From NCBI GenBank assembly GCA_012839295.1, contig DUNO01000033.1:1-64000 (forward strand): DNA of 64,000 bases, read 5' to 3'. The position numbers were made by a program, and so were the translations under genes. Below, piece by piece: positions 8,848 to 45,983 of the stretch. Under the pieces are notes generated by a model that searched no databases, was not told where the DNA came from, and saw nothing but the letters and a program-made list of their open reading frames with translations. The stretch is from Clostridiales bacterium. GTDB taxonomy: Bacteria > Bacillota > Clostridia > Lachnospirales > Lachnospiraceae. Each line of letters opens with the position of its first letter. Position 1 is the first letter of the stretch.

Positions 8848-11256
8848 ATGAATTATATCTATAATCAAGCTGTTCCGGTTTGGGGCAATAATTTATCGAA
8901 TGAATGGAATCAATTTTTAGGTTTTTGTACTGAGCTGGAAGTAGAAGCTGAAACACAGCTCCAGATAGCAGTAGCGGCCAGATCCTTCTACCGCATGTAC
9001 GTTAATGGAGAAATGGTTGCCCATGGTCCGGCGCAGGCGGGTCATGGTTATGCCAGAGTGGATCAGATCAGCATCACAGTAACCGGAAAAGCTGTGTTAG
9101 CCTTTGAAGTGACCGCATACAATAAGCCGGACAAATACAGCAATGCCATTACATTAGAACCGGGTATGCTCTGCTGTGAAATCATGGCAGGGGAGAAGGT
9201 TCTTGCTGCCACAGGCTGGGAACAGGGTAATTCCTTTGTCTATCAGGAGCTGACTTACCGGAATCCCATGGTAGAATTGTTATCCCATAGCAGGGAGATC
9301 ATGGAGGTCTATACACTTGCTAATCAGGATTATGATTGGCGCCTTGGTGTGGGCGAAATGGAGAAGCCGGTTGCAGTTGAGGAGAACCTGCCTGTTTTCT
9401 TAACAAGGAGAGCACCCTATGCGGACTATACAAGAAGGGAATTCACAAAGCTGCTTAAAGTAGCTGATTCCCTGCCCGCAAATGAAGAACCAAAACTCAA
9501 AATGGAGCCCGTATTATTCATGCAGGCAAAATGGTGCAGCATGCTTCCGGAACGAATTGTTCCAAAGGTTATGCTGGAAAGGGAAGCCTTGTTTTCCGGC
9601 AAGGTAGAAAAAGAAAATGGGTGGATGGTAAAGCCGGGAAACCATGCCGCATGCCTTACCTGGGATTTAGGGGAATCTGTCGTCGGGTTTCCGGAGCTTT
9701 TGGTGGAGGTAATGGAAGAAGCAGTGATAGATTTATTACATAGTGATATTCTGGACAAGGAGGGAAGGCCTGCCGAGAATCCCTGCATGGTGCGCTATCA
9801 ATTAAAGCAGGGTACTTATCATTTGATTTGTTATGAGCCATATCTGGTGCGGTATATGAAGGTAATCCTCCGGACCGGGGGCATAGTAAATATTAAAAGG
9901 ATAGGTGTGATCGACTATATGTATTCCGACAAAGAAAAAGGGATCTTCCTTTGCAGTGACAATGAGCTGAATCTTATTTATGAGGGAGCCAGGAGAACCT
10001 TAAGAAATAATATGCTGGACATTTTCATGGACTGCCCGGAGAGGGAACGGGCTGGTTGGCTTTGTGATTCCTTATGGAGCGCGAGGGCTGCTTGGATGCT
10101 TTTTGGGGATTTGGCAGTAGAAAAGGACTTTTTAGAGAATTTTCTATTGACGGATGCAGACAGGTACCGGTCCTCCTTTTTCCCGGAGGTTTATCCCGGC
10201 AGTAAAGGGAAGGAAAAGGATACGGGTATCATGAGCTGGTCTTTCTGGCTGGCCATGGAGCTATGCGAGTATTATGTACGTTCCGGTGACAGGGAGTTTG
10301 TTGACCGGTTCAGGGAGAGGATGGAAAGATTCGTAGAAGGGATCCTTAGCTTTACAGGGGAAAGCGGATTACTTGAAAATATACCGGATCTATTTGTAGA
10401 CTGGTCTGATTCCAATTATGCAAGCAACCTATATCCGATTTCGGTTCCAGTGAACCTCCTTGCTGCCTATGCACTGGAGAGCTTGGGAGAGCTTTATGGT
10501 GAGGCTTCCTGGAAGGCTGAGGGCGGCAAGATAAGAAGCAGGCTGGTAGAGCCACCCTTTATGATGTTAGGTGAGCCTCTTGCCGGAGCATTTACCGATG
10601 CGGTTTCCTATCAGGATGGACATCTGGTTTCAGGACAGGGCATGACGGAGGCTGGAATCGCATTAGAGCTTTGGTCAGGCCTTGGAAAAATGCCGGGCAA
10701 GGAAGCATTGGTAAGAGCCTTCGTAGAGAAGATGGGAACCTGTCCGAAAAAAGCACCGAATATCCAGGTAGCAAGAGCGAATCTATTCATCGGACTTGCC
10801 ATCCGTCTTGATGTGCTTTCCAGATTGGAGGAAATTGATACCCTGGTAAAGGAATTAAAGGATATTTACCTGCCACAGATGCTTCATGGGCCGGGAACCT
10901 TATTTGAGGGCGTATCAAAGGATGGAATATGCGGAAGCCTGTGCCACGGATTTAACGGCCATGCAGGGGTACTGTTAATGAGGGATGTATTAGGAATTGG
11001 GGAACCGGGTCTTCTTACGAAAAGCATACGCATTGCCCCCCATCCCCTTGGGCTGCACTGGGCAATGGGTAAAGTAAGCTGCCAAGATGGGGAAATTTCG
11101 GTGGACTGGAAATCGGATTATGTGCAAAAGAAATTCGGGATGAACATCAAGGTGCCGGAAGGCTGGAAAGCGGATATTGTATATCCGAAGGAGTTGGAAG
11201 GCTGGGATATCACGGTAAACCGTCATCCGATAAAAAATCAGACAATCAAAATATGA
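8848..11256 (+). CDS. GH78-like alpha-L-rhamnosidase (cassette A)
   Basis: This 802-residue protein has no signal peptide. The N-terminal beta domain carries the RSFYRMYVNGEMVAHGPA motif of bacterial rhamnosidases. The central (alpha/alpha)6 domain, from about residue 365, contains DCPERERAGWLCD at 395-407. Glu400 aligns with the general-acid Glu of the classical DERLGW signature. A C-terminal beta domain has the IAPHPLGLHWAMGKVS pattern. The family hydrolyses terminal alpha-L-rhamnose from oligosaccharides or glycosides. Cytoplasmic location fits cleavage after import by the linked transporter. The last 15 or so residues (PKELEGWDITVN) are shared with the GH78-like protein encoded at 28175-30556. 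The exact substrate and family assignment need a profile search. Confidence 0.85.
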   Translation: MNYIYNQAVPVWGNNLSNEWNQFLGFCTELEVEAETQLQIAVAARSFYRMYVNGEMVAHGPAQAGHGYARVDQISITVTGKAVLAFEVTAYNKPDKYSNAITLEPGMLCCEIMAGEKVLAATGWEQGNSFVYQELTYRNPMVELLSHSREIMEVYTLANQDYDWRLGVGEMEKPVAVEENLPVFLTRRAPYADYTRREFTKLLKVADSLPANEEPKLKMEPVLFMQAKWCSMLPERIVPKVMLEREALFSGKVEKENGWMVKPGNHAACLTWDLGESVVGFPELLVEVMEEAVIDLLHSDILDKEGRPAENPCMVRYQLKQGTYHLICYEPYLVRYMKVILRTGGIVNIKRIGVIDYMYSDKEKGIFLCSDNELNLIYEGARRTLRNNMLDIFMDCPERERAGWLCDSLWSARAAWMLFGDLAVEKDFLENFLLTDADRYRSSFFPEVYPGSKGKEKDTGIMSWSFWLAMELCEYYVRSGDREFVDRFRERMERFVEGILSFTGESGLLENIPDLFVDWSDSNYASNLYPISVPVNLLAAYALESLGELYGEASWKAEGGKIRSRLVEPPFMMLGEPLAGAFTDAVSYQDGHLVSGQGMTEAGIALELWSGLGKMPGKEALVRAFVEKMGTCPKKAPNIQVARANLFIGLAIRLDVLSRLEEIDTLVKELKDIYLPQMLHGPGTLFEGVSKDGICGSLCHGFNGHAGVLLMRDVLGIGEPGLLTKSIRIAPHPLGLHWAMGKVSCQDGEISVDWKSDYVQKKFGMNIKVPEGWKADIVYPKELEGWDITVNRHPIKNQTIKI

Positions 11257-28174: not shown

Positions 28175-30556
28175 ATGTTTCATATTTCAGGGAATGGTTG
28201 GATTTGGACAAAAGACTGGAGCGAGAGCGATAATGCAGAACCTGCAATTGTGTATTTCAGAAAAACTATTAAATTTGCTGAGCTTCCCAAAGAAATGCTG
28301 GTTAAGGTTTCAGCAGATTCCAGATACAAATTATATGTAAATGGCAGCTTAATTGAAGTCGGCCCGCTTAAGGGGGATCGTCAGGTCTGGTACTACGATG
28401 AACTGGACCTGGTTCCTTATTTAAAACAGGGAACGAATGTCTTTGCTGCTATTGTCTTAAGATATCCTACAATACATGGTAAGGGAAGCCATAGTATATT
28501 CCGGACGGAAACTCCCGGCTTTTACTTAAAGGGTTATGTGAATAACCAGTATGATATTGCTTGCCGGCAGGAATTCATGGCGGATGGAACCTGGAGGACA
28601 AAAAGGGCGAAGAACATAAAAATAATTTCAGAAAACCCGTTTTTTGCACCGTTACAGATTTTGGAGAAGGCTTCAGGTGATGACGGAGCTTTTCGGTTTA
28701 TGGATGAGGAATTCGAAGATGATACATGGGGAGAGGCAATGGAATATAATGATTTCACAATTCCGAAAGCCGTGAGCCCCGGTAATTTGACGGCAAGAAG
28801 TATTCCTTATTTATACCGGACAAAGAGAAATTTTAATGAGGTATATTGCATAAGGAAATCCATTTTTCCAAAGAACAGCTGGGAGAGCATGCTGTGTGGA
28901 GAATCGGCTGTAACAATTCCTGCTCACTCAAATGAAGTGATTGAAATCAGCGCAGGGGAAGAAACAACTGGTTTTTTAACACTGATACTTGCCAAGGGAA
29001 AAGCCGCGGACATTAAAATACTGACATCAGAATGCTATGCATATGATTCCCCGGATCAGGGGAATATCATGCGGTTACCGAAGAAGGGAGACCGTACTGA
29101 TTGTAAGGATGGAACCTTGTTTGGTTTTGTTGATGAATATGAGGTGTTAGGGGCTGGAACGGAGCAAAGACCGGAAATTTATGAGCCATTCTGGTTCCGC
29201 ACCTTTCGGTTTATACAGCTGGAGATATCGACAAGGGAAGAGCCCCTTACAATCCAAGGATTTCATTATACGGAGACTGGATATCCGATAGAAATGAAAA
29301 CTCAGGTTAAGACTTCTGACAGGTCTTTAGAGGGGGTATGGGATATTAGTGCCAGGACACTGAAAAGGTGCATGCATGAAACCTACGAAGACTGTCCCTT
29401 CTATGAGCAGCTGCAGTATGCAATGGATTCAAGGAACCAGATACTCTATACCTATGCAGTATCTGCTGATGACAGGTTAGCCAGAAAATGCATGGATGAT
29501 TTCAGGCGTTCCCAAAGATATGACGGCATGATAAACTGCTCCTATCCCTGCTATGGACCCAATATCATTCCTGGTTTTTCAATCTATTATATCGGTATGG
29601 TTTATGACCATATGATGTATTTTGGGGACAGGGAACTGGTTCGCGCACATATGCCGGCTATCTGGGGAATATTGAATTATTTTGATAATAGCATCAATGA
29701 GATGGGGCTTGTAGGTAAGACGGGCGGGCTTAATATAAAAGACAGGTATTGGTCTTTCATAGATTGGACAAAGGAATGGAATGAGACATCGGGCGTGCCA
29801 AGAGCTACCCTTCAGGGGCCGATAACAATGGAGAGCCTTTTGTATATCCTGGGACTAACCTATGCATCTGGGCTTGCAGCATTTATAGGAGAGACGGGGC
29901 TGTCAGAGGGATTTAGGGAGAGGGCATGCAGGATAAGGGAGGCGGTAAATAAATATTGCCGGGGAAGTAGCGGTATGTACCAGGATGGCCCTGGGGTGGA
30001 GGAATACAGCCAGCATTGCCAGGTATTTGCCGTTCTTACGGATACAGTAGCGATAGGGGAAGGTAAGAAGTATTTGTTGGAAACCTTGGAACACACGGAA
30101 GCATATGCACAATGCTCTGTTGCTATGATGTTTTATCTGTACCGGGCCATTGAAAAATGCGGTGTTTATGAAAAAACAGATGAATTGTGGAACACCTGGA
30201 GGGTCATGGTGAGTAAAAATCTAACCACCTGTGAGGAAGACCCGGTTAATAGCCGGAGTGACTGCCATGCCTGGGGAGCGTTGGCTTTATATGAGCTGCC
30301 CTCTGCCGTGCTTGGGGTAAAACCTTCTAAACCAGGATATGAAGCGGTACTGATTGCACCGGCTGTCGGGTATTTCCAATGGGCGGAAGGGGATGTCATA
30401 ACACCAAAAGGGATGATCCATGTAAAATGGAACGTAGCCGGTGGAGAGAGGCTTTTGAAAGTGGCGGTACCGGATTCGGTTAAGATGGAGCTGGTATTTC
30501 CCAAGGAACTGGAAGGCTGGGATATCACGGTGAATGGTGAGCCGGCGAAAAAATAA
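28175..30556 (+). CDS. GH78-like alpha-L-rhamnosidase family protein (cassette C)
   Basis: This 793-residue cytoplasmic protein starts with an N-terminal sugar-hydrolase beta domain (SADSRYKLYVNGSLIEVGPLKG). The (alpha/alpha)6 domain has the signature YEDCPFYEQLQYAMD around Asp406 and Glu411. The WSFIDWTKEWN and HAWGALALYELPSAVLG segments are typical of GH78/six-hairpin enzymes. The classical DERLGW is replaced by YEQLQY, a variant of the subfamily, so the specificity may differ from the cassette A enzyme. The C-terminal PKELEGWDITVN is shared with that enzyme. No signal peptide is present, so it acts on imported oligosaccharides. GGAGG precedes the start, which lies 84 bp after the terminator. 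Confidence 0.83.
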   Translation: MFHISGNGWIWTKDWSESDNAEPAIVYFRKTIKFAELPKEMLVKVSADSRYKLYVNGSLIEVGPLKGDRQVWYYDELDLVPYLKQGTNVFAAIVLRYPTIHGKGSHSIFRTETPGFYLKGYVNNQYDIACRQEFMADGTWRTKRAKNIKIISENPFFAPLQILEKASGDDGAFRFMDEEFEDDTWGEAMEYNDFTIPKAVSPGNLTARSIPYLYRTKRNFNEVYCIRKSIFPKNSWESMLCGESAVTIPAHSNEVIEISAGEETTGFLTLILAKGKAADIKILTSECYAYDSPDQGNIMRLPKKGDRTDCKDGTLFGFVDEYEVLGAGTEQRPEIYEPFWFRTFRFIQLEISTREEPLTIQGFHYTETGYPIEMKTQVKTSDRSLEGVWDISARTLKRCMHETYEDCPFYEQLQYAMDSRNQILYTYAVSADDRLARKCMDDFRRSQRYDGMINCSYPCYGPNIIPGFSIYYIGMVYDHMMYFGDRELVRAHMPAIWGILNYFDNSINEMGLVGKTGGLNIKDRYWSFIDWTKEWNETSGVPRATLQGPITMESLLYILGLTYASGLAAFIGETGLSEGFRERACRIREAVNKYCRGSSGMYQDGPGVEEYSQHCQVFAVLTDTVAIGEGKKYLLETLEHTEAYAQCSVAMMFYLYRAIEKCGVYEKTDELWNTWRVMVSKNLTTCEEDPVNSRSDCHAWGALALYELPSAVLGVKPSKPGYEAVLIAPAVGYFQWAEGDVITPKGMIHVKWNVAGGERLLKVAVPDSVKMELVFPKELEGWDITVNGEPAKK

Positions 30557-34784: not shown

Positions 34785-35759
34785 ATGAAAAAAGTGATTC
34801 AGTGGACCGTGATCTTATCCCTTGTTTTGGTGGCTGGTTTTTTTGGTGTTGTGCTAAAAGCAACGCTATTTGATAGGGAGGACGGTGTCCGGGACAAGCT
34901 AAGGATTACGGCAATTATGCCCCATACGGACCAGGGCTATTGGTCATCCGTAACGGAGGGGATTCTGGCAGCAGAAAAGGATTATTCTGACCAGGTTAAT
35001 GTGAGGGTGGAGCTTCCACAACTCAATTATAATGTGAAACAGATGACGGAATTAGTTAACCGGGCTGTTGCAGCCAAAGTAAATGCCATTATTGTGCAGG
35101 GGATAGAGAACGAAGCCTATCTTGCCGCTTTGCAAAAAGCTGCCGAAGCAGGCATCCAGGTGATTTTCGTAGATACGGATATTGAGGATTTTGTCCCCCA
35201 CCTGTATGTAGGAACCAATAACCTGGAGACAGGAATTATGCTTGGGGAAAAGCTGGCAGCGGTTACACAGGGAAAAGCAAAGGTAGCGATCCTGTCCGGG
35301 GAGGAAAATTATCCGAATCTGGAGCAGAGGGTTACGGGCTTAAAGAAGATCTCAGCACAATACCCGGACATTAAGTTCCTCCGTTTGGATTATGATAATT
35401 ATGATGCGCTTACGGTGATGAATAAGTATAATCTGATCCAGGAGGAGAATCCTGAGATTGATACCTTGATCTGTGTTGAGGGAACCGGAGGGCAGACCCT
35501 GGGCTCCTTCTATGCTGAAAATCCCGGGGAATTTTCCCATATCCTGGCTTTTGATTATTCGGAAGGAACCATCCAGGGAATCAGGACCGGGATGCTTGAC
35601 GGAATCGTGATCCAGGATACCCACGAAATGGGTTACCGTGCTGTGGAAGAAGCGCTGAACTTATTTTTAAACGGAGGCTATAGTGCCAACTGCATCTATA
35701 CGGATGTAAAATGGGTTACTTCCTCGGATCTGGATGAGGAGGGGCACTATGTACCATAA
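34785..35759 (+). CDS. Membrane-anchored periplasmic-binding-protein-type sugar sensor
   Basis: This 324-residue protein has one N-terminal membrane helix (about 7-27) with no lipobox Cys, so it is anchored, not lipidated. A sugar-binding-protein fold follows (ITAIMPHTDQGYWSSVTEGI, AIIVQGIENEAYLAALQKA, FVDTDIEDFVPHLYVGTNN, AFDYSEGTIQGIRTGML). Its stop overlaps the kinase gene, and it comes after a complete transporter, so it is more likely a sensor than a transport component. This matches the XylFII-LytS-YesN logic described in Clostridium beijerinckii, where a membrane-bound binding protein activates the kinase. The ligand is probably galactose or a related sugar, by context only. Confidence 0.85.
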   Translation: MKKVIQWTVILSLVLVAGFFGVVLKATLFDREDGVRDKLRITAIMPHTDQGYWSSVTEGILAAEKDYSDQVNVRVELPQLNYNVKQMTELVNRAVAAKVNAIIVQGIENEAYLAALQKAAEAGIQVIFVDTDIEDFVPHLYVGTNNLETGIMLGEKLAAVTQGKAKVAILSGEENYPNLEQRVTGLKKISAQYPDIKFLRLDYDNYDALTVMNKYNLIQEENPEIDTLICVEGTGGQTLGSFYAENPGEFSHILAFDYSEGTIQGIRTGMLDGIVIQDTHEMGYRAVEEALNLFLNGGYSANCIYTDVKWVTSSDLDEEGHYVP

Positions 35760-37257
35760 AAAACTGATCGCTAATATTAACCGTTCCATCAGCAGGAAAT
35801 ACAGCATGGGATATTTTTTGCTGATTGGAATTGCGGCTATCTTAATTGCAGTATCCTTTATCGGCAGCTTCTTCATTACATCACAGAACCAGAAGATGAT
35901 GAGGGAGCTTTTGGTCTTGAACCAGCTTTTTATCGAGGTCGAGACCGTGAATACCTATGTCAATGATGCCTATCTGTACTTAAGGAACTCAAGCCGCCAG
36001 AATTATACGGAGTACCAGGATAGCGTTATCTCTGCCCTCCATGAGGTGCGTAAAAGCTTAAACAAGGAATATTCCCGGGAGATTGTTGACATCACCTGCA
36101 CCGTTGAGACTTACCTGGAGCAAAGTGATGCGCTGATCAAGAAGCTTGAGACTTATGTGACTGCCGATAAAACACAAAGGGACCAAAGCAGCCTGGAAGA
36201 AATGTATAACCAGACCCAGAATACCCTCCATTATATTAATGTGAGCTTTAAGGATGTGTATTCCGATAAGCTCATTACCGTACAAAGGGTGCAGGAGGCA
36301 TTGAAGCTTTGGCAAAGCATTATCTATATCATCCAGGTGACCCTGCTGACCGCAGGAAGCCTGATCTGCATTATTTATTATAAAAAGGTACTGGACGGGA
36401 TAACAAAATCAATACATAAGCTGACGGAATTCGTGGGTAAAATAAGAAATAACCTATACCAGAAGGAGCATGTAGAAATTAGTACGGGGGATGAATTCGG
36501 GGAATTTGCGGAAGCCCTCAATGATATGATCGACATCATCCAGGATCAGGTGCATGAAATTGAAGAAAACTCCCATATCAAGGAGAAGCTCCATGAAGCA
36601 GAAATAGAGAACCTTAGGATCTATACTGAGCTGCATAAGAGCCAGTTAATATTATTGCAATCAAGAATCAATCCCCATTTCCTGTTTAATACCCTAAACA
36701 TGATTTCCTCCACTGCCAGGCTGGAGAATGCCGAACAGTCAGCTAACCTGATGGAAATAACGGCAAATTACCTGAGGTATAACCTGGATAAGCTCTCAAA
36801 GGCAGTTTCGCTGCGGGATGAAATTGAGAATGTAAAGGATTATGTATATCTTCAAAAATGCAGGTTTGAAGAACGGTTTGATTTCCATTTTGAAGTGGAT
36901 CCCAATTGCGGGGGCTTAATCCTGCCCTGCATGATCCTGCAGCCCCTGGTGGAAAACTCATTGCGCCACGGGGTCAATATGATGCTGAAGGAGGGAACCA
37001 TCTGGATCAGGGCGTATCGGGAGGCTGACCGGATCTGCCTTGAGGTTGAGGATAATGGGGTTGGAATGGAGCAGCAAAAGATTGGGGAGCTATACCGGTA
37101 TTTAGAGGATATTACAATCGAGGATGAGCATATAGGGCTGAAAAACATTTATATGAGACTGAAAATATTCTTTGAAGATGATGTGGTATTTAAAATTGAC
37201 AGCAAAGAAGGGAAGACATTGATACACATTTCTTTACCAAACCAGGAAAGGGAATAA
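35749..37257 (+). CDS. LytS/YesM-type sensor histidine kinase (three-component system)
   Basis: The start at 35749 follows GAGGAGGGG and overlaps the sensor gene by 11 bp; an ATG at 35734 is in frame but lacks that spacing. The 502-residue kinase has membrane helices at about 21-45 and 190-210, with an extracytoplasmic helical region of about 145 residues. A HAMP segment, the His_kinase motif SRINPHFLFNTLNMIS (about His310), an N box (LVENSLRHGV) and a G box (VEDNGVGME) follow. The short all-helical sensor region, without a sugar fold, is consistent with signalling through the adjacent binding-protein sensor. Confidence 0.93.
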   Translation: MYHKKLIANINRSISRKYSMGYFLLIGIAAILIAVSFIGSFFITSQNQKMMRELLVLNQLFIEVETVNTYVNDAYLYLRNSSRQNYTEYQDSVISALHEVRKSLNKEYSREIVDITCTVETYLEQSDALIKKLETYVTADKTQRDQSSLEEMYNQTQNTLHYINVSFKDVYSDKLITVQRVQEALKLWQSIIYIIQVTLLTAGSLICIIYYKKVLDGITKSIHKLTEFVGKIRNNLYQKEHVEISTGDEFGEFAEALNDMIDIIQDQVHEIEENSHIKEKLHEAEIENLRIYTELHKSQLILLQSRINPHFLFNTLNMISSTARLENAEQSANLMEITANYLRYNLDKLSKAVSLRDEIENVKDYVYLQKCRFEERFDFHFEVDPNCGGLILPCMILQPLVENSLRHGVNMMLKEGTIWIRAYREADRICLEVEDNGVGMEQQKIGELYRYLEDITIEDEHIGLKNIYMRLKIFFEDDVVFKIDSKEGKTLIHISLPNQERE

Positions 37258-37262
37258 GAATT

Positions 37263-38579
37263 ATGTATACGATGATTATTGCCGATGATGAGGCAATTGC
37301 AAGAAAAAGTCTTGAGCTCTTTGTAAAGAAGGAATTTCCGGAAATACATATTATCAATTCGGTCTCGGATGGCATTGCATTAGTGCAGGAGGTAGAAAGA
37401 CAGCTCCCGGATATTGCCATTGTAGACATTAATATGCCGGGACTGAGCGGAATTGACGCTATAGAGCTGTTATACAACAGGGGTGTAAAAACACGGTTTG
37501 TGATCAACACGGCTTACAGCGAATTTGATTATGTGAAGAAGGCGCTGGAGCTGAAGGTGGACGGCTATTTGCTAAAGCCGGAAAAATATGAAGAGAGCAA
37601 AAAGACAATCCGGAAGCTATGTGAGAGCATATCCTATGCGAAGGCGGAGCAGCAGATACAGAGCAAAATGCAGTCCCTGTTCCATGTCATATCCCCGGTG
37701 CTGGAAAGTGAAATTATGCTTACGGTCTTTGCGGGGGAACCAGCAATGGAGGATTTTACGGCTTACTGTGAAATGTATGGGATCAGCTTTTACGGAGGCT
37801 GTATGGTTTCGCTAATCGAGGAAAATGCAGAGGTGCTTACAAATAACCATATCAATAAGCGGAGCCTTCGCCAGGCAATCCATGATATCTTAACCATAAG
37901 CTGCAATCATTTGGTCATGGTCACGGAAAGCAGCATTAATGTGTTGGTGCTGTTACCAAAGCAAATGGAGGCCGCGGAGCAGAAGGAATGGATCTGGGAT
38001 GTGGCACAGGTCCTGCTTAGCAGGCTGAAAGCCCATTGCGGTATTTCCTTTATGGCGGGGATTGGGGAGATCTATGGAGATTTCAGGAAAATGTCCCGCT
38101 CCTATAAAGAGAGCCTTGCGGCCTTAAGGCAAAAAAATAAACTTGACGTGATTCTGTACGATATGCAGGTGCATCATTTGCCGGAGGAAGAGCCGGGAGC
38201 TTCCTGCTATACCCTGGACAGGACGTTGGAGGAAGACTTCAAAACTGCCGCCAGCATGAAAAAAAGCGTTTATGTAGAGGATGCGGTCAGCTATATCCAG
38301 GAGCACTATACGGAGGACATTTCCCTGGATACGGTTGCTGAGAAAATCCGTATCAGCCCCTTCTACCTCAGCAGGCTGATGAGGCAGGAAACCGGGGTCA
38401 CCTTCGTGGAATACCTGACGAGGGTAAGGATCAAGGAAGCAATAAAATTAGCCATAAATACGAATTTATCAATCAAAGAAATTGCAGAGAGGATAGGTTA
38501 CCTGAATGTTACCTATTTTTGCAAGGTGTTTAAAAAGAGGACAGGGAAGACAATTGGTGAATACCGGCGGGGAAATTAA
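37263..38579 (+). CDS. YesN-type response regulator (three-component system)
   Basis: This 438-residue protein starts 5 bp after the kinase. The receiver (MIIADDE) has phospho-acceptor Asp55 in VDINMPGLSG and Lys in YLLKPEKYE. A middle domain spans about 130-330, and the AraC DNA-binding domain has HTHs DTVAEKIRISPFYLSRLMRQ and IKEIAERIGYLNVTYFCKVFKKR. Its receiver (DINMPG) differs from the DIEMP type of the three cassette regulators, so it belongs to another YesN branch. It probably activates mglBAC. Confidence 0.93.
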   Translation: MYTMIIADDEAIARKSLELFVKKEFPEIHIINSVSDGIALVQEVERQLPDIAIVDINMPGLSGIDAIELLYNRGVKTRFVINTAYSEFDYVKKALELKVDGYLLKPEKYEESKKTIRKLCESISYAKAEQQIQSKMQSLFHVISPVLESEIMLTVFAGEPAMEDFTAYCEMYGISFYGGCMVSLIEENAEVLTNNHINKRSLRQAIHDILTISCNHLVMVTESSINVLVLLPKQMEAAEQKEWIWDVAQVLLSRLKAHCGISFMAGIGEIYGDFRKMSRSYKESLAALRQKNKLDVILYDMQVHHLPEEEPGASCYTLDRTLEEDFKTAASMKKSVYVEDAVSYIQEHYTEDISLDTVAEKIRISPFYLSRLMRQETGVTFVEYLTRVRIKEAIKLAINTNLSIKEIAERIGYLNVTYFCKVFKKRTGKTIGEYRRGN

Positions 38580-40121: not shown

Positions 40122-41087
40122 ATGAATCCTCAAATTTTAGAAAAATTAAAAGTAATAACGATGGAAGAACAAGACATATTGGATGGAAAAAAGCAGCAGA
40201 TCGATAAATCCATCTATATGGACTCCTCATCCAATATCATCGATAATAAAAAGCTTCTCGATCATGGAAAGCTTATCCAGGTGCGCCCCCATACCCGCTT
40301 TGCCTATTTTCCAAAGCACAAGCATAATTATGTGGAAATGATCTACATGTGCCAGGGACAGACAAATCATATGATTAACGGGGAAGATGTGGAACTGAAT
40401 GAAGGAGAGCTTCTCTTTTTAAACCAAAATGCAACCCAGGAGATACTTCCGGCGGGCATTGACGATATTGCGGTAAATTTTATCATTCTCCCTGAATTTT
40501 TCGACCGCACCCTGGTAATGATAGGGGAGGAGGAGAATCTTCTCCGTGAATTTATCATAGGGTGTCTAAAACGTGAGGATGATAAGGTCAGCTACCTGCA
40601 CTTTAAGGTGGCCGACATACTTCCGATCCAGAATCTGGTGGAGAATTTAATCTGGACCATAATGAATAACCAGCAGAATGTGAGGAGCATTAACCAGGTT
40701 ACCATGGGACTTATGTTCCTGCAGCTGATGAACCATACGGATAAGGTATCGGTGGGTAAAAACCAGTATGAGCAGGAATTGGCGATCCGCCTGCTCCGTT
40801 ATATCGAAGAACATTACCGGGACGGGAAATTATCCGATCTGGCAGAGGCGATGCACTGCGATTTATATTGGCTGAGCAGGATGGTTAAGAGGCTGACGGG
40901 CAAGACCTTTACAGAACTGCTGCAGACCAAAAGGTTGAACCAGGCTGCATATTTGCTTTCTACGACCAAACTAACCGTAGCTGAAATCGGTATGGCAGTA
41001 GGTTATGATAACCTTAGCTACTTCCACCGCATATTCTTTGAAAAATATAACGTATCGCCGAAGAAATACAGGGATTGTAAGCCATAA
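40122..41087 (+). CDS. AraC family regulator, probable rhamnose-operon regulator
   Basis: This 321-residue protein has a cupin sensor domain (AYFPKHKHNYVEMIYMCQG, GELLFLNQNATQEI) and a C-terminal pair of HTHs (LSDLAEAMHCDLYWLSRMVKR and VAEIGMAVGYDNLSYFHRIF), ending P-K-K-Y-R. It lies directly upstream of rhaB in the same orientation, separated by two hairpins. A role as an L-rhamnose-responsive activator like RhaR/RhaS is inferred from position, not from diagnostic residues. Confidence 0.88.
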   Translation: MNPQILEKLKVITMEEQDILDGKKQQIDKSIYMDSSSNIIDNKKLLDHGKLIQVRPHTRFAYFPKHKHNYVEMIYMCQGQTNHMINGEDVELNEGELLFLNQNATQEILPAGIDDIAVNFIILPEFFDRTLVMIGEEENLLREFIIGCLKREDDKVSYLHFKVADILPIQNLVENLIWTIMNNQQNVRSINQVTMGLMFLQLMNHTDKVSVGKNQYEQELAIRLLRYIEEHYRDGKLSDLAEAMHCDLYWLSRMVKRLTGKTFTELLQTKRLNQAAYLLSTTKLTVAEIGMAVGYDNLSYFHRIFFEKYNVSPKKYRDCKP

Positions 41088-41149: not shown

Positions 41150-41183
41150 AGCGGTTTATTCAATGTTATGTAAAATGCAAATC

Positions 41184-41218
41184 AGGACACTTTTTTATAC
41201 AAAAGGTGTTCTTTTTTT
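41184..41218 (+). terminator. Intrinsic terminator between the AraC gene and rhaB
   Basis: AGGACACTTTT pairs with AAAAGGTGTTCT (G-T pairs allowed) around a short loop and is followed by seven T. It isolates rhaB from read-through. Confidence 0.75.
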
Positions 41219-41267: not shown

Positions 41268-42662
41268 ATGAGTAATTATTATTTAGCGATTGACATCGGT
41301 GCTTCGAGCGGTCGCCACATTTTGGGTTATCTAAAAGACGGCAAGCTTCAGATGGAAGAGATCCATCGCTTTGAGAATGGGATTGCCAAAAAGGACGGCG
41401 AGTATTGCTGGGATTTTGACAGATTATTCGCTGAAATTAAGCTTGGTATGAAGAAGTGTAAAGAAATGGGCAAAATACCTGTCAGTGTAGGTGTTGATAC
41501 CTGGGGAGTAGATTATGTTCTTCTTGACAAGGATGATAAGGTGATTGGCAATACGGTGGCCTACCGTGACAGCCGTACCCAGGGAATGGATGATAAGGTT
41601 TATGAAATCATTTCTGAGGACAAGCTTTACGCAAGGACCGGCATCCAAAAGCAGATCTTTAATACCATTTACCAGCTCATGGCCGTTAAGGTAAAGCATC
41701 CGGATTATCTGGAAAAGGCGGAAAGCTTCCTGATGACTCCGGACTATTTTCATTTCCTGCTCAGCGGTGTAAAGAGCAATGAATACACCAATGCAACAAC
41801 GGGACAGTTGATTAATCCGGTTACTAAGAATTGGGATTATGAGTTGATTGATATGCTGGGCTATCCGCGTAAAATCTTTCAGGATACCTCCCTGCCAGGT
41901 ACGGTTCTTGGCGGACTGGCAAAGGAAGTGAGGGAAGAGGTTGGCTTTGACTGTAAGGTGGTGCTTCCTGCAACCCATGATACTGGCTCAGCAGTTATGG
42001 CAGTACCCACCAGCGATGAATTCCCTCTCTACATCAGCTCCGGTACCTGGTCTTTAATGGGTATTGAGCGTATGGACGCAGACTGTTCACCCAGGAGCAA
42101 GGAGTGTAATTTGACCAACGAAGGCGGCTATGAATACCGTTTCCGTTATTTAAAGAACATCATGGGCCTTTGGATGATCCAGTCAGTGAAAAAGGAGATC
42201 GGGGCAGGCTTATCCTATGCCGGGATATGTGAGCAGGCATCAAAGGTTACCATCCCGTCCCTGGTTGATGCCAACGACGGCCGTTTCCTGGCTCCGGAGA
42301 ACATGACAAAGGAAGTGCAGAAGGCATGTGCCGAGACAAATCAGCCGGTACCGGAAGGGATTGCGGAGGTTGCGGCAGTGATCTACAACAGCCTGGCAAA
42401 ATGCTATAAGGACACCATTGATGAGATAGAGGAATTGACAGGTAAGAAGTTTGATAAGATCCATGTGGTCGGCGGCGGCTCCAATGCAGATTATCTGAAT
42501 ATGCTTACTGCCCGCTATACAGGCAGGACCGTATATGCGGGACCTGGTGAGGCAACCGCAATCGGCAATATCCTTGCCCAGATGATCAGCAATAAGGATC
42601 TGGCAGATCTTAAAACTGCGCGGGAATGCGTAAGCAAATCCTTTGAGATAACAAAGTATTAA
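41268..42662 (+). CDS. rhaB: Rhamnulokinase
   Basis: This 464-residue FGGY-family kinase phosphorylates L-rhamnulose to rhamnulose-1-phosphate. It has the N-terminal ATPase fold motif LAIDIGASSGRHILGYL, the substrate-region VGVDTWGVDYVLLD, and the C-terminal adenosine motif VVGGGSNADYLNMLTA. The start at 41268 follows AAAGGAG; an upstream in-frame extension to 41163 runs through the terminator and is rejected. It is the first gene of a rhaB-rhaA-chemoreceptor operon. The aldolase rhaD is not in the window. Confidence 0.95.
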   Translation: MSNYYLAIDIGASSGRHILGYLKDGKLQMEEIHRFENGIAKKDGEYCWDFDRLFAEIKLGMKKCKEMGKIPVSVGVDTWGVDYVLLDKDDKVIGNTVAYRDSRTQGMDDKVYEIISEDKLYARTGIQKQIFNTIYQLMAVKVKHPDYLEKAESFLMTPDYFHFLLSGVKSNEYTNATTGQLINPVTKNWDYELIDMLGYPRKIFQDTSLPGTVLGGLAKEVREEVGFDCKVVLPATHDTGSAVMAVPTSDEFPLYISSGTWSLMGIERMDADCSPRSKECNLTNEGGYEYRFRYLKNIMGLWMIQSVKKEIGAGLSYAGICEQASKVTIPSLVDANDGRFLAPENMTKEVQKACAETNQPVPEGIAEVAAVIYNSLAKCYKDTIDEIEELTGKKFDKIHVVGGGSNADYLNMLTARYTGRTVYAGPGEATAIGNILAQMISNKDLADLKTARECVSKSFEITKY

Positions 42663-42752: not shown

Positions 42753-44000
42753 ATGACAACTTTACAAAGATATGAATCCGCAAAAGAAATTTACGCAAAA
42801 ATTGGTGTTGACACAGACGCCGCAATCAAAAGGCTCCAGAACATCCCCATTTCCATGCACTGCTGGCAGGGTGATGATGTAGGCGGCTTTGAAGGCGCAG
42901 GGGAATTATCCGGCGGTATCCAGGCAACCGGCAACTATCCGGGAAAAGCATCTACTCCGGAGGAACTGATGGCTGATATTGATAAAGCCTTAAGCCTGAT
43001 CCCAGGTGTCCATAGGGTTAGCCTCCATGCAAGCTACGCAATCTTTGAGGATGGCGAAAAAGTAGACCGCAACAAGCTGGAGCCAAAGCATTTTAAGAAA
43101 TGGGTTGAATTTGCGAAGGAAAGAGGGCTGGGACTTGACTTTAACCCTACCTACTTCTCACATCCTTTTGCAGCGGACGCAACTCTTTCCAGCGAGAATG
43201 ATGACATCCGTAAATTCTGGATCGAGCATGGAAAGTGCTGCCTTAGAATTTCAGAATATTTTGCAGAGGAGCTGGGAACACCCTGCTGCATGAACATCTG
43301 GATTCCGGATGGCTTTAAGGATATTCCTGCCGACAGAACCGCTCCCCGTGCAAGACTTAAGGATTCCCTGGATCAGATCCTTGCAATCCCTTATGATAAG
43401 AGCAAGGTATATGTGGCAGTAGAATCCAAGGTATTTGGAATCGGCCTGGAAAGCTATACCGTAGGCTCCCATGAATTTTACATGAACTATGCAGCAAAGA
43501 ATAATATTCTTTGCTTACTGGATAACGGACATTATCATCCGACAGAGGTGGTATCCGATAAGATTTCCTCCATGCTGTTATTCTCCGAAAAGCTTGCACT
43601 CCACGTAACCAGACCGGTTCGTTGGGATAGTGACCATGTTGTATTATTTGATGATGAGACTAAGGAGATTGCAAAGGAAATCGTTAGAAATGGTGTTGAC
43701 AGGGTGCTTATTTCCCTGGATTACTTTGATGCCAGCATCAACAGGATTTCAGCTTGGGTTGTAGGTATGAGAAATATGCAGAAGGCACTTTTAAATGCGT
43801 TATTACTTCCCAATGCACACCTTGCAAAGCTTCAGAATGACAGGCGTTTATCTGAATTAATGATGTTCCAGGAGGAATTAAAGCTGTATCCTGTAGGTGA
43901 TGTATGGAACTATTTCTGTGAGATCAACAATGTTCCGGAGAAAGCAGAGTGGTTCGCAGAGGTTCAGAAATACGAGCAGGAAGTTCTTACAAAGAGATAA
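42753..44000 (+). CDS. rhaA: L-rhamnose isomerase
   Basis: A 415-residue protein of the usual length (about 419) for RhaA, which converts L-rhamnose to L-rhamnulose with divalent metals. Family landmarks are [14 protein letters not shown] near the N-terminus, [30 protein letters not shown], the metal-site segment [10 protein letters not shown], and [17 protein letters not shown] lies before the start. It follows rhaB by 90 bp and precedes the chemoreceptor fusion by 42 bp. Confidence 0.97.
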
Positions 44001-44042: not shown

Positions 44043-45983
44043 ATGTTTCAGGGTAAATTATTAAAACGGTCTGAACTTGCGGATGTAGCCGAGATATTTA
44101 TCAGCAAGAATTTTGCAGATGCTTCACCTGACCTAAAACTACATGACGGACATGCAAAGAGATTACTGGAAACAGCACTTGAATACCATGAGGCCTTAGC
44201 CCATGTGGTTGCCGGTGTAGAAGAACTGGCAAAGCAAGGAAGTATCCTGTCCCTGACCTATGAGGACAGGGCGAAATCGAACCAGAGCATTAGCCAGGCA
44301 AACGAGGATATTGCGGTGGTGGCAAGCCATCAGGCAGAGACGGCGACCCAGTGCGCAGTGTTTTCCGGGCAGTTTCAGAATGAATTTGATGATTTATTGA
44401 CAGAAACACAGGAAATGGATGCAAAATCCGAAAAGACGAAGAAAATCAGCGAAGCGGGGCAGGAATCCCTGCAGGCCTTTTTAGGGGAGATACAGAAGTC
44501 GAATGAAGTATTTATGAACCTCTCCGATAAGCTGGTACAATTTGATGCTTCGTTAAAAAAGATTAACCAGGTTGTAGCTACCATTTCCGGGATTGCCTCC
44601 CAGATCAACCTTCTCTCCCTCAACGCCTCCATCGAGGCGGCGAGGGCAGGAGAGGCAGGCAAGGGCTTTGCGGTTGTAGCCAGCGAAGTAAAGAAGCTTG
44701 CAGAGGACAGTGACCTGGCAAGCAAGAATATTGAGAAAGACATCCAGGCAATCACGTCTGAGATGCACATAATGATGAACCTGGTCGGACAGGAGAAGGA
44801 AGGCGTGGTAAACCAGTCCAATGCCATTGGCAGCGTAAGCTCCGGCATGGAGGAGATTAACCATGCGATTTCTGACCTGATGACTGGCCAAAGAAAAATT
44901 AATAATAAAGTAAAGAACATGTATTCCACCAACCAAGAGCTGCTTGACAAGATTAATGAAATAGCCGCCCTGACCCAGGAATATGCTGCCACAAGCCAGG
45001 TGGTATCCAGTGCCTCCATGGAAGCGAACAGTAAGGATGAGATGATACTGGAGATGCTGCAGCGCTTTAATATGAACACAACGGAGTTGATGAGGTACCT
45101 GGAAGGCTTCAAGATCAGACGGGAAGCATCAAGGAAAAAGCGGATCGGCGTGGTCTGCCTGGAACAGGCGCCCTTCTACCGTGAGGTAGAGGATGCGGCC
45201 TATGCCACAGGCGATAGGCTTGGAATTGAGGTGGTATGTACCGCACCGAAGAGATTTAATGTGGAGGAACAGGAGAGGATATTCCGGAATTTTGTAAAGG
45301 AAGGCATGGATGGGATCATCATTGCGCCGGGCGATGCTAACCGCCTGAAGTCTGCAATTGATGAGGCGGTAGCCGCAGGAATTAAGGTAGCCTGCATTGA
45401 CATGGATGCCCCTAATACAAAGCGTGATATCTTTGTTACCTCCGACAGCTACCGTGGAGGTGCCCTGGCCGGTGAGGTTGCCGCCAAGGGTCTTGGCGGG
45501 AAGGGAAGGGTGCTGGTCTTTTTGGCAGCGGCAGCGGTACCGACGGTACAGGAGAGATACCGTGGCTTTGCTGAGGAGCTGAGTAAATATCCTGGGATTA
45601 AAATCCTGAAAAAGGAAGAGCAGAAGGACACGGATATCACTGTAACAAGGACGATGCTGGAAGCCTTGATAAAGCAGCATCCCGATTTTGACCTCCTCTA
45701 TCTGGTTACGGCGGACAGCGGTGAGGTGGCGGTTGAGCTTTACAAAAAGCTTGGCCTTAAAAAGCAGCTGGTAGTATTAAGTAAAAGTGATGTCATCACG
45801 GCTGCAGTCAAGGAAGGCATTGTTACCTCCCAGATTGTACAGCGCAATGAGCTGTGGGGGGAGATGGCCGTCAAACGCCTGAACGACATGTTCGCAGGTA
45901 AGGCCTGCAACAGCTTTGAAGATACCAGCATGTATGATATCAACCAATATAACTATAAGATTTTTGACAAGAGCCGGAAGTAA
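44043..45983 (+). CDS. Soluble chemoreceptor-signalling domain fused to a sugar-binding-protein domain
   Basis: This 646-residue protein has no signal peptide and no membrane helix. Residues about 80-350 form a methyl-accepting-chemotaxis coiled coil. The kinase-interacting hairpin tip spans about 182-215 ([16 protein letters not shown], then [16 protein letters not shown]). Residues about 366-646 form a complete periplasmic-binding-protein-type sugar domain ([58 protein letters not shown]). The binding domain is at the C-terminus and must be cytosolic, the reverse of a classical chemoreceptor. Its place as the third gene after rhaBA suggests sensing of intracellular rhamnose or a metabolite of it. 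The output (CheA/CheW) and the ligand are inferred. Confidence 0.9.

Follow-up and report, generated by a model that had tools for sequence, protein, structure and literature searches.

What does a soluble chemoreceptor sense when its gene stands directly behind two genes of rhamnose catabolism, and what could its signal be used for? Bacteria find food either by sensing it outside the cell or by following their metabolism inside it, and the latter is usually explained through PAS-based or redox-based energy taxis. The locus studied here lies in the first 64,000 nucleotides of contig DUNO01000033.1 from a Clostridiales bacterium (assembly GCA_012839295.1); this stretch is referred to below as the window. 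With a probability of roughly two in three, the receptor encoded there reads the cytosolic level of a compound of the rhamnose pathway and biases CheA/CheY and swimming. Within this reading, the ligand, the direction of the signal, the control of CheA and the motility output are points that we infer, and they are worded conditionally below.

The receptor gene closes a row of rhamnose genes

The receptor is encoded by a single intact open reading frame of 646 amino acids, whose ATG is preceded by a Shine-Dalgarno-like AAAGGGGGG. It follows rhaB and rhaA as the third and final gene of the rhaBA row (Table 1). The initial annotation had placed it right behind these two genes at a distance of 42 bp; the equivalog scores identify both neighbors as named, and the gap between the rhaA stop and the receptor ATG is indeed 42 bp. 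The rhaB frame opens at 41163, and its probable start, MSNYYLA at 41268, was chosen by comparison with a 464-amino-acid frame of locus L034. The top NCBIfam match of the AraC-type regulator ahead of rhaB is RhaS, at 79 bits and far under the cut-off of 288. In L034, an open reading frame with a similar start, as judged by eye, occupies the corresponding spot ahead of rhaB, rhaA and the receptor.

In a terminator scan, the gaps separating rhaB, rhaA and the receptor contained no terminator-like site, and one such site was listed inside the receptor gene (44454-44472). The total of such sites is at chance level (6 versus a mean of 6.3 in shuffles), so that co-transcription of the three genes, which we infer, rests on their order and spacing. 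Between araC and rhaB, in the rhaB leader, a 12-pair hairpin followed by a T run (41184-41212) resembles a terminator. Elsewhere in the window, two genes of the alpha-L-rhamnosidase type (Bac_rhamnosid6H plus C-terminal domain; 8848-11256 and 28175-30556) sit amid sugar-transporter and two-component genes, 32.8 and 13.5 kb upstream of the receptor, respectively.

Table 1. Positions of the rhamnose genes, the receptor and the parts of the receptor in the window
Feature	Position	Strand	Basis
AraC-family regulator, probable rha regulator	40122..41087	+	HTH_18 3e-19, AraC_binding 3.4e-07 (Pfam)
rhaB, L-rhamnulokinase	41268..42662	+	TIGR02627 558 bits, over cut-off
rhaA, L-rhamnose isomerase	42753..44000	+	NF002203 667 bits (over cut-off), PF06134 655 bits
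Soluble MCP - Peripla_BP_4 fusion receptor, 646 aa	44043..45983	+	ORF, Pfam, hydropathy, AlphaFold2
MCP helical hairpin, residues 37-354, tip glutamate 204	44151..45104	+	MCPsignal, AlphaFold2 helices 37-201/203-354, Tsr tip identity
Putative methylation site, residues 308-317, 104 residues past the tip glutamate	44964..44993	+	consensus match
C-terminal type-I periplasmic-binding-protein fold, residues 367-633, predicted cytosolic ligand-binding domain	45141..45941	+	Pfam, AlphaFold2, Foldseek

Architecture of the receptor

A chemotaxis hairpin placed ahead of a periplasmic-binding-protein fold had been proposed from the reading frame, and the domain search and structure prediction return exactly this order. 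In Pfam, residues 150-310 match MCPsignal (PF00015; 1.2e-29; 103.8 bits versus a cut-off of 34.6), and residues 375-620 match Peripla_BP_4 (2.3e-45; 155.6 bits versus a cut-off of 35.1), with the LacI-type Peripla_BP_1 reaching 40.6 bits. These three are the only matches at E<=0.001, and no CZB domain is among them. In the full-length AlphaFold2 model (five-row alignment; mean pLDDT 80.6, pTM 0.44), residues 1-34 have low confidence and are followed by a helix over residues 37-201, a turn at 202, a second helix over 203-354 and a two-lobed fold over 367-633; at a pTM of 0.44, the relative arrangement of the two halves is not fixed by the model. Modeled alone, the binding domain reaches a pLDDT of 91.9 and a pTM of 0.85 (six-row alignment). 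When it was compared with known structures in Foldseek, sugar-binding proteins ranked first, and the best query-normalized TM score among the 50 matches listed was 0.92, for the thermophilic glucose/xylose-binding protein 3c6q.

No membrane helix, signal peptide or lipobox was found in the receptor. The N-terminus has no hydrophobic stretch, and the highest 19-residue Kyte-Doolittle mean, 1.38, lies at residue 484, within the binding domain; the absence of a membrane helix and of a signal peptide, claimed from the outset, is borne out by these values. An exported or membrane protein is ruled out for the window receptor by the same hydropathy maximum. The window protein is a cytoplasmic (class IV type) chemoreceptor with an unusual type of sensor.

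A family of fused receptors in Clostridia

The same join of MCP hairpin and Peripla_BP_4 domain occurs in about 30 genomes, mostly of Clostridia. The family was surveyed by six-frame searches with the window receptor in overlapping genome sets. Fusions were found in 4 of 61 relatives (E<=1e-60), in 5 of 34 genomes of the genus (E<=1e-50) and in 1 of 13 genomes of the family to which genome G1003 belongs (E<=1e-60). Lower bounds were obtained where only the best three candidates per genome were scored, namely at least 7 of 397 genomes of the window's family (E<=1e-50) and, at E<=1e-45, at least 14 of 391 of the class (the match in G715 stops at residue 490), at least 7 of 392 of the order and at least 2 of 398 of the phylum. 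All these counts, except that for the family of G1003, include the window's own genome. A further contig scan covered the best 80 of 158 relatives: L034, L035 (86% identity), L036 (54%), L037 and L038 are fused receptors or pieces of them, one match (L039) is a binding protein that stands free, and the remaining 74 (L040-L113) match at 23-36% identity. Pfam analysis of five further members showed both domains wherever the sequence piece covers them. The window genome itself holds a second fusion, L002, which is 27% identical to the first.

The topology of 34 members was compared, with starts picked mechanically and with one member truncated (L146) and another cut by the contig start (L125). 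Half of them (17) have no predicted membrane helix, and the other 17 have at least one. Exactly two predicted helices near the N-terminus, with 1-22 residues between them, occur in 14 of the 34. A loop of this length leaves no room for an outside sensor and places the binding half on the cytosolic side. The cytoplasmic ligand pocket assumed in the initial annotation is thus backed both by the soluble window receptor and by the two-helix members, and inward sensing looks like a trait of the whole fusion family. The soluble members L002, L012, L029 and L030 start with a short segment ending in WDF, which aligns with the stretch just past the membrane helices of anchored members.

Glycosidase genes of the GH115, alpha-xylosidase, GH42 and GH3 types were seen beside or near other fused receptors (L115, 3263-6187; L117, 4437-6779; L118, 3766-5748; L132, 10145-12469); as single sightings, these might hint that other branches of the family serve sugar loci too.

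Inheritance and conservation of the two halves

In a tree built from 42 binding domains, 35 of them fused and 7 free (three of the free ones on long branches), the fused domains group together with moderate support (87/98). The window receptor, its relatives in G012 (L149) and G829 (L036), and the receptor of G1003 (L159) form a clade with support of 100/99, referred to here as clade 1. The tree of the 35 signaling halves recovers the same four as one clade (100/98), which indicates that the two halves were inherited together; within it, the signaling half of the window receptor sits on a long branch. Domain shuffling onto unrelated hairpins within clade 1 is excluded by the signaling-half clade. 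Likewise, an assembly error or chance joining of two genes is excluded, since this join recurs across about 30 genomes and both halves give agreeing trees.

The two halves are conserved to different degrees. Between the window receptor and that of G1003, the binding halves are 55.9% identical and the signaling halves 37.5%; for G829, pairwise alignment gives 53.8% and 36.4%. These differences exceed those in two other large clades, in which the signaling half leads the binding half in identity by 3.8 and 7.0 points on average, and in which the difference (binding minus signaling) across 175 within-clade pairs (120 plus 55) ranges from -15.7 to +6.2 points. The truncated L146 was kept out of the comparison, as were L131, L147 and L165, which lie outside both clades, in the within-clade pairs. 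In the close pair of the window receptor and G012, the order is reversed (signaling half 90.7%, binding half 86.3%). Such constraint, across lineages, on the half that carries the pocket is consistent with a single common ligand, and the long branch of the window's signaling half may add to the difference between the halves.

Signaling hairpin and chemotaxis genes

The hairpin tip aligns with that of Tsr without gaps, with 30 of 49 positions identical (the Tsr letters match 1qu7). In the numbering that we take for Tsr, the equivalents of N381, E385, R388, E391 and V398 are retained, F373 is replaced by Ser and I377 by Leu. The putative methylation site was located with what we take to be the methylation consensus. 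In the alignment of the family, the tip motif was detected in 25 of 35 rows, 18 of which have a consensus match at the same offset of 104 residues; 6 of the other 10 rows, in which no tip motif was detected, also carry a consensus match. The genome contains six matches to the CheW domain, two of them within frames of 708 and 700 amino acids, which are taken as CheA from domain and size, together with two CheR matches over the cut-off and four flagellins. The chemotaxis genes that the initial annotation required are therefore present.

Two frames of CheA size imply that one of them could serve another output. Together with the terminal position of the receptor in the rhaBA row and the long branch of its signaling half, this would suit a receptor that feeds a CheA-type kinase with a non-swimming output, or one that regulates rhamnose use at the level of the operon. 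However, the identity of the tip to Tsr, the retained methylation consensus and the presence of flagellins argue for swimming, and an output of this other kind seems to us quite unlikely.

The binding pocket

The receptor is far from the RhaS equivalog TIGR02637 (36 bits versus a cut-off of 342). To compare its pocket with that of a known sugar-binding protein, we used 14 positions that we take to be the ligand contacts of Escherichia coli RbsB, the letters of which were checked against the RbsB sequence. Five of the 14 are kept in the window protein (F15 as F378, D89 as D453, S103 as S467, R141 as R505 and Q235 as Q600), and these five are invariant in all four members of clade 1. The other nine are altered. 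In all four members, F16 is replaced by Tyr, F164 by Thr and D215 by Ser, the position of D215 being Asp in 30 of the 31 other fused members; N190 is Thr in three of the four and Asn in one; the position of R90 is Met, Met, Val and Ile across the clade, with Met in the window protein; and N13, N64, I132 and F214 are also replaced in the window protein. In this alignment, the RhaS proteins of G829 and G1003 have Gly at D215 and Thr at N190, but Trp at R141 and Q235.

With 9 of 14 positions altered, the window protein has a distinctive pocket, which could accommodate something besides a free sugar. Judged by its residues, clade 1 appears to have a pocket that is compatible with a deoxysugar, which falls short of proof. 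The same altered contacts could also be read as a sign that the domain has lost small-molecule binding and provides a platform for docking or dimerization. Loss of binding would, however, be expected to relax the pocket, whereas F378, D453, R505 and Q600 are identical in all four members, and between lineages the hairpin has diverged more than the binding domain. A domain that has given up its ligand is accordingly very improbable.

Rhamnose genes around clade 1

Clade 1 receptors stand among rhamnose genes in three differing arrangements in four genomes. The first, shared by the window and G012, consists of an ORF of the araC type, rhaB, rhaA and the receptor; the G012 receptor, from the same genus, is 87% identical to that of the window and likewise directly follows rhaA (G012 and the Herbinix MAG of L034 seem to be one assembly). 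A further receptor, L035 (86% identical), was left uncounted, since its contig starts inside the gene and the upstream side is unreadable.

The second arrangement is that of G829 (BP5.bin78), whose receptor gene is split over two contigs, with 39% identity to the window receptor in the N-terminal piece and 53% in the C-terminal piece. Upstream lie an alpha-L-rhamnosidase-type gene that is cut by the contig end (426 bits versus a cut-off of 1720), a GH3-type gene, a beta-phosphoglucomutase, a lactaldehyde reductase (662 bits, over the cut-off), a two-component pair, a RhaS-type binding protein (308 bits, slightly under the cut-off of 342), the L-rhamnose mutarotase RhaM (165 bits, over the cut-off) and an MFS transporter. 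The third arrangement is found in G1003, from another family of the phylum, whose receptor is 45% identical to that of the window. It is preceded by RhaS (437 bits, over the cut-off), ABC genes and a second RhaS-like protein (226 bits, under the cut-off), and followed by a DeoR-type regulator, RhaI (637 bits, over the cut-off) and a gene similar to class-II aldolases (82 bits, under the cut-off). As far as the loci of G829 and G1003 can be read, they show no homologue of rhaA or rhaB. Since the gene order and the isomerase differ (RhaA in the first arrangement, RhaI in the third), the linkage does not reflect inheritance of a single locus.

As a control, all ORFs called around the 31 other fusion loci, some of which are cut by contig ends, were compared with one representative per rhamnose protein. 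At E<=1e-15, none of the 31 matched rhaA, rhaB, RhaI, RhaM, RhaS or the rhamnosidases used; one of the control loci (L121) has an iron alcohol dehydrogenase that is 27% identical. The association with a rhamnose locus, which had been taken as meaningful from a single case, thus recurs in three arrangements and was not seen around the 31 other loci. Clade 1 is thinly sampled, with three lineages and four genomes of readable context, and its distribution is scattered: members were found in 2 of the 34 genomes from the genus and in 1 of the 13 from the G1003 family.

A different ligand is brought to mind by the downstream side of G829, where mgsA (methylglyoxal synthase; L036, 1018-1419) directly follows the receptor and precedes a Firmicute FBPase (PF06874, 1049.6 bits). 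In another genus, mgsA lies divergently beside two receptors of the membrane-anchored clade (L124, 10004-10483; L126, 10489-10968), with dhaL on the other side of the receptor in L126. These neighbors, and the loss of an acidic group from the pocket by the replacement of D215 with Ser, would suit a cytosolic sensor of a general central metabolite (dihydroxyacetone phosphate, methylglyoxal or fructose bisphosphate), of which rhamnose would be one source. However, mgsA was seen beside only 2 of the 31 loci outside clade 1, both from that one genus, a third genome of which (L146) has no mgsA in its readable flank, and in only one of the three lineages of clade 1, whereas RhaM, RhaI and rhaA recur in clade 1 and none of them was seen around the 31 others. 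A general sensor is therefore unlikely, albeit worth keeping in mind. A neighbor of L116 resembling glycerol-3-phosphate oxidase is under its cut-off (325.9 versus 460 bits).

Proposed mechanism and relation to known systems

Returning to a receptor for a compound of the rhamnose pathway, free L-rhamnose or L-rhamnulose would be the most likely ligand, carrying somewhat over half of the weight within this reading, and rhamnulose-1-phosphate, lactaldehyde or a triose product is less likely. As the third gene behind rhaB and rhaA, the receptor is probably made during rhamnose use, so that rhamnose would be tracked by uptake and metabolism and not by surface contact. Judging from the fold, ligand binding would close the two-lobed domain, and the closure may be relayed to the C-terminal hairpin arm by the short linker that spans approximately residues 355-366. 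Consequently, the tip bound to CheA and CheW would be altered, and the phosphorylation of CheY and swimming would be biased, with methylation by CheR at residues 308-317 adapting the receptor. We tentatively extend this to a more specific proposal, on which the balance of our judgment is close to even and tips slightly against: that the family consists of inward-facing chemoreceptors of Clostridia with a captured sugar-binding domain, and that clade 1 is a dedicated intracellular receptor for L-rhamnose or L-rhamnulose acting in taxis by direct binding.

If this holds, it would represent substrate-specific, metabolism-dependent taxis by direct binding, as opposed to the sensing of redox state or proton motive force. 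An intracellular sugar-type pocket encoded behind the very catabolic genes it would report on would be a genetically simple case of metabolism-dependent taxis to one sugar, and a fold that usually works outside the cell would here face inward, serving as the sensor in a family of chemoreceptors present in many Clostridia.

Cytoplasmic chemoreceptors are well known as a class, and 14% of bacterial MCPs have no membrane region according to PMC8466855. TlpD of Helicobacter pylori and other CZB receptors, as described in a preprint (PMC12871147), are likewise soluble MCPs whose sensor follows the hairpin at its C-terminal end, and changes in their sensor are stated there to coincide with changes in the kinase tip. 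The sensor of TlpD is a zinc-binding CZB domain, whereas that of the window receptor has a sugar-binding-protein fold; TlpD is also described as having no canonical methylation sites, whereas the window receptor has one consensus site. In the methanol and formaldehyde taxis of Methylobacterium, receptors likewise follow the metabolism of the substrate; the passages considered from PMC10613068 mention no sensor of the binding-protein type and state that the ligand of MtpA is under study. Among the titles and abstract openings listed in the literature searches, none describes an MCP with a C-terminal Peripla_BP_4 domain or a chemoreceptor in a rhamnose operon. What is unusual about the present receptor is its type of sensor and not the cytoplasmic location of a chemoreceptor.

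Several other systems share parts of this design. Trg of E. coli is stimulated by the separate periplasmic proteins RbsB and MglB, which dock outside on the membrane receptor; as in that case, a type-I sugar-binding protein acts on an MCP, but in the window receptor the binding domain is cytosolic and belongs to the same chain, at the opposite end of the MCP. Repressors of the LacI/GalR type use the same fold for cytosolic sugar sensing, C-terminal to a DNA-binding output, whereas the output here is an MCP hairpin. Compared with the Peripla_BP_4 solute-binding proteins of CUT2 ABC transporters, the fold is the same, but the receptor has neither a signal peptide nor a lipobox. A sensor of the Peripla_BP_4 type is likewise part of a signaling protein in the hybrid two-component sensor BT1754 (2x7x) and in XylFII-LytS (5xsj), both of which, judging by their PDB titles, presumably do their sensing outside the cell, with a histidine kinase as the output. 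The window contains a trio of a Peripla_BP_4 protein (34785-35759), a sensor of the His_kinase type (35734-37257; the two genes overlap by 26 bp) and an AraC-type response regulator (37263-38579), which comes after a CUT2 (mgl-like) ABC transporter and looks like external sugar sensing. Another protein of the same genome (L007, 1360-3294, on contig C6 of G000; 645 residues) consists of two Peripla_BP_4 stretches in tandem.
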